Assembly: GCF_000147355.1 (NCBI RefSeq)
Contig: NC_014506.1
Span: forward strand, 620,001-684,000
Direction: 5' to 3'
From: Sulfurimonas autotrophica DSM 16294
GTDB lineage: Bacteria > Campylobacterota > Campylobacteria > Campylobacterales > Sulfurimonadaceae
Length of the DNA stretch: 64,000 bases
In this document: positions 13,129 to 15,576 of the stretch, one piece after another
How the letters are laid out: the number at the start of each line of letters is the position of its first letter
Numbering within the stretch: the first letter of the stretch is position 1
Made by a program: the position numbers and the translations under genes
Notes under the pieces: generated by a model
The model's database searches: none
Told to the model about the DNA's origin: nothing
What the model saw: the letters and a program-made list of their open reading frames with translations, nothing else

Positions 13129-13680
13129 TTACTTACAGTTCTTATGTGTTTGCAACTCAAATTTTATTGTAACATCTTGCCATGTTTTGCCTTTATGTTT
13201 TGAAAAACAGGCTTTGTTGATGCCCGCAAGAGATGGAAGCATATTAAAGTCCGCAAGGTCAATATAGCCTTGTGCTTCTATTTTATCAGAAGTATTGAGT
13301 TTCATAGGTATATTTTTTGTTACTCCGTTCATTGTGATATCTATATTGATAATTTTATCACTGAGTGAGACAACTTTTGCAGTGATGTTTTTGACACCTT
13401 GCACGGCAAAAAAGTATTTTACGAGCTTTGCATCACGTCCTTTGTTCTTTGAATTTATAGAGGATGTGTCTATGATTACAGTACTCGTTTTTAAAAATGA
13501 CTTTTCAGATTTTGTATCTGCAGCTTTAATCGAAATATTGTCAAATGTTCCTCCTACACCGATTTTCAGGGGTGTTTTATAAGCTTCCCACGTTACATGT
13601 AAGGTTTTTGCATCATATCTGCATTCATTTGCAAAGACAATAGTCGCCAGCGTGAGAAGTATAAGTATTACTTTTTTCAT
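13129..13680 (-). CDS. YceI-like periplasmic protein
   Basis: An exported protein (signal peptide about 1-18) with a YceI/lipocalin-like beta-barrel pattern, a fold known in other members to bind isoprenoid-type lipids. It shows LHVTWEAYKTPLKIGVGGTF early, a central STVIIDTSSINS strand, and VTKNIPMKL. The frame is open from a TTG at 13692, but that TTG is part of TTGGAG, a good ribosome binding site six bases before the ATG at 13680. The ATG is therefore the start, giving 183 residues. The mature part has Cys residues near both ends. The ligand is unknown. Confidence 0.8.
   Translation of the reverse strand: MKKVILILLTLATIVFANECRYDAKTLHVTWEAYKTPLKIGVGGTFDNISIKAADTKSEKSFLKTSTVIIDTSSINSKNKGRDAKLVKYFFAVQGVKNITAKVVSLSDKIINIDITMNGVTKNIPMKLNTSDKIEAQGYIDLADFNMLPSLAGINKACFSKHKGKTWQDVTIKFELQTHKNCK
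13593..13602. repeat. TTACATGTAA palindrome, copy 5
   Basis: Perfect copy inside the YceI-like gene, read as Leu-His-Val-Thr. Confidence 0.9.
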
Positions 13681-13772
13681 AGTATGCTCCAAGAGTTAGT
13701 TAGAAGCATTGTAACATAGATATTTTTTATAAAAATAAGATAATTATTTTATAGAAGAGATTAAAAGGGAGA

Positions 13773-13844
13773 AAAAGGTTAGTCCTCGATGGTCCTTCGG
13801 ACATCATCTGTGGTTCCGACGCTAAAAACGAGAAGAAGTTCTCG
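13773..13844. repeat. 72-nt structured tandem repeat, unit 1
   Basis: First of two ungapped 72-nt units between groEL and the YceI-like gene. It contains an inner hairpin, GTCC-TTC-GGAC, and a terminal hairpin, CGAGAA-GAAG-TTCTCG (13829-13844). On the minus strand the terminal hairpin is followed by five T residues, like an intrinsic terminator. Confidence 0.8.
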
Positions 13845-13845
13845 T

Positions 13846-13917
13846 AAAAGGTAAGTCCTCGTCGGTCTTTCAGACAACGCTTCCGGTTCCGACACTAAAA
13901 ACGACACGCAGGTGTCG
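13846..13917. repeat. 72-nt structured tandem repeat, unit 2
   Basis: Second unit, alignable to unit 1 without gaps. The inner hairpin is GTCT-TTC-AGAC, a C-G to T-A pair change relative to unit 1. The terminal hairpin CGACAC-GCAG-GTGTCG replaces most stem bases while keeping six pairs. The conserved blocks are AGTCCTCG and GGTTCCGAC. Confidence 0.8.
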
Positions 13918-13925
13918 TTTTCTTT
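13897..13925 (-). terminator. groESL intrinsic terminator (second hairpin of the repeat)
   Basis: The stem CGACAC/GTGTCG at 13902-13917, eight bases beyond the groEL stop in the direction of transcription after an AAAGAAAA stretch, is followed on the minus strand by TTTTT. On the plus strand it is followed by TTTTCTTT, so it can act both ways. A second terminator of the same design follows in repeat unit 1. Confidence 0.7.
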
Positions 13926-13932
13926 ACGTGTC

Positions 13933-15576
13933 TCACATCATACCCGGCATTCCCATTTGTGGAGGCATTCCTGCTCCCATATCCGGTGCTGGAGTTTCTT
14001 CTTTTGGAAGTTCAAAAATTGCCGCTTCCGTTGTAAGAAGTAGACTTGAAACTGACGTAGCATTTGTAAGTGCAACACGCTCAACTTTGAATGGATCGAT
14101 GATACCTGCTTCAAACATGTCTACGTATTCACCTGTTGCAGCATTGAAACCAATGTTTTCATTGTCTGCATTTTCGATTGCATTGACAACAACACCAGTA
14201 TCAAATCCTGCATTTTGCGCGATTTGTTTTACAGGAGCTTTTACAGCGCGTAATATGATTTCAGCACCGATTTTTTGATCACCTTCAAGGTCATCTATAC
14301 TTACTTTTGCAGCAGCGCGAACAAGTGCCGCTCCACCACCGATGACAATGCCTTCTTCAACAGCTGCTTTTGTAGCTGAAAGCGCATCATCAACACGGTC
14401 TTTTTTCTCTTTCATTTCAGTCTCAGTTGCAGCACCAACTTTGATTACTGCTACACCACCGCTGAGTTTTGCAAGACGTTCTTGCAGTTTTTCTTTGTCA
14501 TATTCGCTTGAAGTGGCTTCGATTTGCGTTTTGATTTCAGCAATACGAGCTTTTACCGCTTCTTCGCTTCCTGCGCCGTCAACTATGACACTGTTGTCTT
14601 TGTCTATAACAATACGTGCTGCTTGACCGAGCATAGAAATTTCTGCACCTTCTAGTGTATAGCCTGTCTCTTCTGAGATAACAGTACCACCTGTAAGTGT
14701 TGCGATGTCTTGAAGCATAGCTTTTCTTCTATCTCCAAAACCTGGCGCTTTTACAGCAGAAATGTTAAGCACACCACGAAGTTTGTTTACAACTAAAGTT
14801 GATAATGCTTCACCCTCTACATCTTCAGCGATGATAAGTAAAGGACGGTTTGTTTTTTGAACCTGTTCTAACACCGGAAGCAAATCTTTGAGTGACGCTA
14901 TTTTACTGTCAACAAGTAAAATCCAAGGATTTTCAATCTCAGCTGTCATTTTTTCAGTATTTGTAATGAAATACGGGCTTAAATATCCACGGTCAAACTG
15001 CATACCTTCAACAACATCAAGCTCATCAACAATACCTTTTGCTTCTTCAACAGTGATAACACCGTCTTGCCCGACTTTTTCCATAGCCTCAGCAATCATT
15101 GCACCGATCTCTGCATCAGAGTTTGCCGAAATAGTTGCAACCTGTGCAATTTCACTTTTGTCTTTGATAGACTTAGAAGCTGCTTTTAAGTTCTCTAAAA
15201 TTGAGTCACAGGCTTTGTCCATACCGCGTTTTACTTCGACAGGGTTCGCACCGGCTGTAATGTTTCTAAGCCCTTCGCTAAATATGGCATTTGCAAGAAC
15301 TGTTGCAGTAGTAGTACCGTCACCCGCTTCATCAGCAGTATTTGAAGCTACTTCTTTTACAAGTTGTGCTCCCATGTCTTCTAGTTTGTCTTGTAACTCA
15401 ACTTCACGAGCAACTGAAACACCGTCTTTAGTGATTACAGGTGCACCGTAGCTTTTTTGTATTAAAACATTACGACCGCGAGGTCCCATTGTCACTTTTA
15501 CCGCATCTGTGAGTTTTTCAACTCCGCGTGCGAGTTTGTTTCTTGCATTATCTGAAAATATTATCTCTTTTGCCAT
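13933..15576 (-). CDS. groEL: chaperonin GroEL (Hsp60)
   Basis: ATP-driven folding chamber, 547 residues, the usual length. It shows the nucleotide-binding [16 protein letters not shown] and [26 protein letters not shown], and the Gly-Met-rich tail ending GMPGMM. AAGGAG precedes the ATG by eight bases. It is the second gene of groES-groEL (35-base gap) and ends just before a hairpin terminator that belongs to a tandem structured repeat. Confidence 0.99.

Follow-up and report, generated by a model that had tools for sequence, protein, structure and literature searches.

A two-hairpin repeat family, found behind groEL and elsewhere in Sulfurimonas and its relatives, looks like a tiny mobile element without a gene of its own

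Downstream of groEL in Sulfurimonas autotrophica lies a pair of short structured repeats, and the locus raises the question of which molecule folds there and how the repeats came to occupy the site. The window, the whole stretch of DNA that was analysed, is 64,000 nucleotides long and covers positions 620001-684000 of the 2.15-Mb genome (G000). A sequence-only reading had placed two tandem units behind groEL at 13773-13917 and taken their compensatory changes for the mark of selected RNA structure, offering a double terminator with extra structure, a small RNA or a dispersed repeat family as explanations. The two units are there, both on the - strand between groEL and a YceI-like gene (the names groEL, YceI, hisF, CZB, dnaA and ruvC are read from translations), with starts at 13781 and 13854 and thus a spacing of 73 nt instead of the proposed 72. 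Also present are the changes from GTCC/GGAC to GTCT/AGAC in the inner stem and from CGAGAA/TTCTCG to CGACAC/GTGTCG in the terminal stem, together with the blocks described as conserved in both units. The groEL-proximal copy runs 17 bases past the end of the proposed extent, into the groEL stop codon. The parts of the pair are given below, with scores from R1, a covariance model built from 22 BLASTN-found copies, one each from 22 genomes of the genus; by these scores the pair stands above chance.

13854-13934, - strand: groEL-proximal copy, complete; R1 98.7 bits over 13854-13936, a score that is not independent, the copy being one of R1's 22 source sequences
13781-13853, - strand: second tandem copy; R1 52.8 bits, from outside the R1 source set
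13928-13932, - strand: outer arm, first half, GACAC on the - strand, pairing with 13891-13895 (covarying helix 2)
13891-13895, - strand: outer arm, second half, GTGTC on the - strand (covarying helix 2)
13898-13921, no strand assigned: terminal hairpin, 10 bp, A/T foot, 4-base loop (covarying helix 3)
13861-13881, no strand assigned: core hairpin, 3-base loop, 2-base bulge at 13876-13877 (covarying helix 1)
13788-13808, no strand assigned: core hairpin of the second copy, read from coordinates
13829-13844, no strand assigned: terminal hairpin of the second copy, read from coordinates
13933-13935, - strand: groEL stop codon TGA, made of T from groEL and GA from the element; TAA or TAG in empty relatives
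13935-13938, - strand: putative target ATGT directly before the junction, from junction comparison

Read in the groEL direction, the unit is ~83 nt long and has two hairpins, one of them seated on a 5-bp arm. It opens with GA and a 5-nt arm; CGTAAAG then leads to a 10-bp hairpin that has an A/T foot, after which come AG, the second arm and GGAACC. NNAG, a core hairpin (3-nt loop, 2-nt bulge) and GAGGACT complete it. The groEL-proximal copy has this order on the - strand (GA-arm-hairpin-arm-GGAACC-core hairpin-GAGGACT), with two of the four outer pairs of its core hairpin imperfect, and the second copy has the core and terminal hairpins and an outer arm without its second half. Probably the pair goes back to an old insertion at groEL, next to which stands a second copy in tandem that is truncated in part. 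Among copies from other genomes, L199, L217 and L224 are decayed, with most of the terminal hairpin gone and the core hairpin and junction kept.

Neither BLASTN nor R1 found a further copy in G000 beyond the pair. Plain BLASTN matched 32 of 135 genomes of the genus at E ≤ 1e-5, the own genome included, many of them with several or tandem copies. R1 matched 54 of the 135 (E ≤ 0.001), 22 of which had supplied the model, as well as 105 of 228 family genomes (53 inside the genus and 52 outside it, spanning 12 of 18 genera; E ≤ 0.001) and 74 of 397 genomes in a Campylobacterota sample (33 of 68 genera; E ≤ 1e-6). These scans used stricter filters and capped scoring; only two copy-rich genomes, G140 and G170, were scanned without them, giving 27 and 20 R1 matches. 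Copy pairs in G140 are 87-92% alike between unlike flanks. The covariance-model search of genome and relatives suggested in the sequence-only reading thus returns many copies in relatives and none elsewhere in G000. The guess of a dispersed repeat family was right and reaches far past the window; the idea of no other copies anywhere falls, and so does that of an isolated double terminator, as the pair belongs to a family dispersed in Sulfurimonas and its relatives.

An Rfam search, also suggested there, gave only tRNAs in the window at gathering score, and the best sub-threshold matches to the element reached 15.6 and 13.9 bits against cut-offs of 100 and 49, so that no known Rfam family matches it. 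Across genomes from 84,980 species the genus-type core pattern occurs in 14 stretches; Sulfurimonas MAGs account for 13 of these and a Helicobacteraceae MAG for the other. Carriage by viruses or plasmids was considered and set aside, the core pattern having no occurrence in IMG/VR, and one genus-type copy used as query had no match in 72,556 plasmid and 50,697 phage records. No longer element with a gene of its own was seen. In G036, pairwise alignments of four copies (L177-L180) extend over 122-179 nt and take in flanks that contain another hairpin-like stretch, and there may be a longer version of the element in that genome.

Imperfect folded hairpins in which unpaired bases are conserved, and head-to-tail tandem arrays with short variable spacers, would also be expected of tyrosine-recombinase sites such as integron attC or XerH/dif, whose copies would be swapped by site-specific recombination. 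Integron attC boxes read RYYYAAC ... GTTRRRY, and by eye these are absent from the element consensus; moreover the spacers seen are gene-free, and the plasmid and phage records hold no match to the genus-type copy. We regard this explanation as highly improbable.

The pairing itself is well preserved. In the BLASTN-found set (22 sequences, 21 distinct), 97.9% of cells pair; shuffles reach 82.5% and slid structures 31-51%, in a test that favours the structure, which was drawn from these same sequences. Double changes occur in 15 of 23 pairs, and 76 cells are changed on both sides versus 6 on one side. A larger set of 124 copies (120 distinct) shows double changes in all 23 pairs and 95.5% of cells paired against 70.1% in shuffles, counts that lean towards the structure since this alignment (A3) was fitted to the model. 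Behind the smaller set stand 27 listed terminal units, of which 25 form alignment A1 (L010, which did not fit the end pattern, and L029 were excluded) and 22 form A2, the source of both R1 and the pairing test, without L003, L015 and L017, whose core stem is two bases longer.

Which molecule folds can be approached through the mismatches. Among 2521 cells in the copies there are 42 G-T, 36 A-C and 77 other mismatches, whereas 26 distinct tRNAs from the window and the fetched loci have 63 G-U (11%) and no A-C in 553 pairs, the zero being not fully independent because ARAGORN selects tRNAs for pairing. An RNA made from one strand would tolerate one kind of wobble more than the other, and hence the symmetry speaks for DNA hairpins; wobble that is both rare and strand-symmetric suggests that the structure is kept on the DNA level. 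The earlier claim of selected RNA structure does not agree with G-T and A-C being about equally rare, and the data point to folded DNA rather than RNA. DNA hairpin repeats of this kind could be mistaken for non-coding RNAs, and the strand-neutral wobble count offers a simple discriminator between the two in covariation data.

Paired changes, and wobble counts like these, could also arise by mutation alone. Template switching in hairpins during replication corrects imperfect palindromes and produces Watson-Crick double changes, and the copies could accordingly be old, immobile, REP-like relics whose pairing is kept by this process and not by selection. The 76 to 6 excess of two-side over one-side changes fits such an origin, as do the decayed copies and the failure to find an enzyme, yet correction should also have removed the 2-base bulge and the arm-side asymmetric loop, both of which persist in the alignments, and the 87-92% likeness of copies at different places in G140 points to later spread. 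We think it decidedly unlikely that relics account for the family.

The junctions were more informative about how copies reach their sites. Occupied and empty sites share a sharp common junction at which the element starts with GA after an ANNT-like site; often this point lies within a stop codon (T|AA or T|AG), which is remade as T|GA. The flank profile, in which several of the 118 rows are one site in different species, comes close to background a few bases beyond the TGA and, at the opposite end, beyond GNNGG; A stands three bases ahead of the junction T in 72%. From the 124 rows of A3, 118 entered this profile and 111 distinct places entered an ORF count, rows being dropped for a gap at the anchor column, a contig start or a repeated junction.

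At groEL, a script count of 22 occupied loci, which are not a random sample and include two (L013 and L046) from one genome, gave 16 ending in TGA and 6 in TAA:

TGA: L002, L003, L004, L007, L008, L010-L015, L017, L025, L026, L046, L156
TAA: L029, L031, L087, L148, L184, L195

For comparison, groEL was sought in 30 genomes, 25 lacking an R1 match and 5 having one, and 29 of them gave the locus. Twenty-seven of these have no visible element, and their stop codons are TAA in 22, TAG in 5 and TGA in none. The difference in TGA between occupied (16/22) and empty (0/27) loci has a Fisher p of 2e-8 with related genomes treated as independent. A second gene, which we label by its protein end SKHM, matched in 123 genomes, and 30 of these were read. 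Five have the element or a remnant of it in the stop codon, all five with TGA, and the remaining 25 have TAA or TAG. One genome, G124, is empty though its flanks are 93 and 91% identical to those of the occupied G104. In three of the 25 TAA or TAG genomes, an element follows another ATGT 24 nt downstream; for one spacer to have two insertion points, at least two events are needed. Insertion between T and AA or AG, with the element supplying GA, explains the change of stop codon. At single sites gain and loss cannot be told apart.

TGA stands at the junction in 84 of the 111 distinct places. An ORF of 100 or more codons closes exactly at the junction in 33 (31 with TGA, 2 with TAA), runs into the element and stops inside it in 5, runs through it in 1 and ends 4-120 nt upstream in 25; the other 47 have no ORF of that length ending nearby, some of these loci being cut by contig ends.

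Placement at gene ends would be expected of a structured RNA at 3' ends, whether terminator, 3'-UTR element or small RNA, that is inherited vertically and occasionally duplicated. Besides the 33 places that start exactly at a stop codon and the 25 with an ORF end just upstream, the A/T-footed hairpin and the groEL copies of many species, which change sequence yet keep pairing, would suit such an RNA. However, the two strands show wobble that is rare and nearly equal, ~40 conserved nt follow the hairpin in the gene's direction, some copies do not follow genes but lie upstream of dnaA or at a palindrome resembling parS, a consensus scan of the window copy shows no terminator-like site, and Rfam has no match. 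An RNA of this kind is in our judgement unlikely. A terminator and nothing else was likewise set aside, since the scan, empty over 13600-14000, found none, probably because the A/T run is absorbed by the stem, and the conserved part behind the hairpin would stay unexplained. Of the earlier proposal of a double terminator with extra structure, what survives is a possible terminator role as a side effect. Several species share the copies at groEL, beside hisF and upstream of dnaA, which still covary, so some are perhaps kept for a job; such a local job may be the ending of transcription.

We consider it probable that the repeats are a family of ~83-nt non-coding, non-autonomous elements of the REP or IS200/IS605 kind that would move as single-stranded DNA. 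Observation supplies the family, its pairing, its junctions, the occupied and empty orthologous sites and the similar copies between unlike flanks; the rest is conditional. Single-stranded element DNA would fold into two hairpins and insert precisely, with no target duplication, immediately 3' to an ANNT-like site that in many cases is ATGT. Insertion would often fall between a stop-codon T and AA or AG, where the element's GA would restore a TGA stop, and movement would take the single-strand route of IS200/IS605 and REP elements with an enzyme supplied in trans. We infer that insertion and not another process made the junctions, and that the active strand is the groEL-sense strand. Against this reading stand the six occupied groEL loci with TAA, the 47 places that lack a nearby ORF end and the one ORF that continues through the element. 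Sharp insertion with no duplication, two hairpins and structure at the DNA level would, by analogy, fit single-strand transposition of these types.

Known systems share some of these traits. Cut-and-paste MITEs are likewise short, gene-less and dispersed, but the element consensus has no terminal inverted repeats and by eye the sites read show no target duplication. BOX and similar repeats are modular, tandemly variable and stably folded, with many copies, and the element is so too; junctions in stop codons are not known for them. Closer are non-autonomous IS200/IS605 elements (IS608 and ISDra2 type), which have hairpins and insert 3' of a short sequence with no target duplication; here the junction follows ATGT at both groEL and the SKHM gene, with empty relatives for each. 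The element differs from them in that no autonomous partner was found, in its loose target, merely ANNT-like over all copies, and in the extra covarying arm at the insertion point. GTAG-class REPs, defined in PMC6006769 by a GTAG or GTGG lying 0-2 nt 5' to a hairpin whose stem has 7-20 bp, are also short dispersed palindromic DNA frequent at gene 3' ends, some with a bulged long hairpin, and are believed to move in single-stranded form (PMC6006769 and PMC3733652). The element, in contrast, is ~83 nt long with two unlike hairpins in fixed order and a sharp stop-codon junction, and within the family its presence does not go with that of RAYT-like genes. By eye, the consensus has AGTCCTC, NNAG and TAAG/AAAG at the hairpin feet in place of the GTAG/GTGG tag, and its sole GTGG lies 4 nt from the 5-bp arm. 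CGTC-class REPs (PMC3733652) consist of one hairpin of 8-9 bp that bears a CGTC tag and a short tail and, like the element, are palindromic repeats without a dedicated transposase; by eye the consensus differs from them in tag, stem size and tail. By analogy, then, the element would work like a REP or a non-autonomous IS200/IS605 element, a likeness that stops short of membership in either. The portions seen of PMC12306157, PMC3733652, PMC2817692 and PMC6006769, all from the open PMC literature, contain no description of the family. One Sulfurovum strain is reported to have both REP classes, GTAG and CGTC (PMC3733652), and RepRanger tabulates generic palindrome counts for Sulfurimonas gotlandica (PMC12306157); copies or halves of the element could be among the repeat counts in these two sources, unrecognised as one unit.

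Searches for Y1 genes in the family and phylum genomes identified no mobilising enzyme. Taking both counts as from the same 397 phylum genomes, Y1 genes occur in 124, that is in 45 of 74 element genomes versus 79 of 323 others; weak matches occur in 36 of 74 versus 55 of 323 (odds ratio 4.6, kinship ignored). A RAYT partner suggested by this association was rejected for the family, where the association vanished after stratification by six genus groups: in the 228 family genomes, of which 59 have a best E ≤ 1e-60 and 101 E ≤ 1e-10, RAYT-like genes do not track the element for strong matches (Mantel-Haenszel odds ratio 0.94, p 0.98) or for any match (0.78, p 0.50). R1 found no copy (E ≤ 1) in 30 Y1-gene loci, up to 1.5 kb on each side, and four complete or nearly complete element-bearing genomes (G003, G012, G224, G226) have no match to the Y1 query (A4), which pools several Y1 types, so that a partner restricted to one type could escape it. 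G000 has a sole, weak Y1-transposase match at G000:C1:1500039-1500317 (open frame of 175 aa), of a type also present in other members of the genus.

A bolder version, which we rate as unlikely, would make the family a still-active, gene-less single-strand system across the order in Campylobacterota, served by a host enzyme other than Y1 and using stop codons as a safe harbour. The attraction of the safe-harbour idea is that the element's own first two bases remake the stop codon, which suggests a route to harmless insertion in a dense genome. With a widespread family and a sharply defined junction, mobility, polarity and the responsible enzyme are testable. On polarity, the T|GA strand is the lagging-strand template for 67 of 88 copies (52 of 71 clusters, 28 genomes) among those listed, with the origin set at dnaA, the terminus placed across from it, genome lengths mostly rounded to 0.1 Mb and copies common to related genomes counted separately. 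This excess is above 50% but would not go beyond a gene-orientation bias of 65-70%; the window's own pair lies on the opposite strand.

Several copies sit at or within other short sequences. A full copy comes after a partial one that ends in GTGA in both L076 and L129; we did not accept this nesting as proof of insertion, since the rest of the partial copy is absent behind the full one. A second tiny repeat around TTTCTTTAGAAAGC interrupts or adjoins copies in L068, L190 and L192, with a variant in L131. Nine copies (L009, L016, L018, L019, L021, L022, L024, L027 and L030) have their first bases within TGTTTCACGTGAAACA or a near variant of it, a sequence that we take to match the parS consensus; they lie in a spacer beside a CZB-like or ksgA-like gene, plus hisF where in view, and the element's first bases GAAAC finish the parS-like palindrome. 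Five others (L020, L023, L057, L061 and L185) are at or beside TTATTCACA-like sites, presumably DnaA boxes, and in L020, L057, L061 and L185 the copy is in the dnaA-ruvC spacer. Finally, the element adjoins tRNA-Asn in L186, L189, L196 and L138, lying between two tandem tRNA-Asn genes in L186 and L189.
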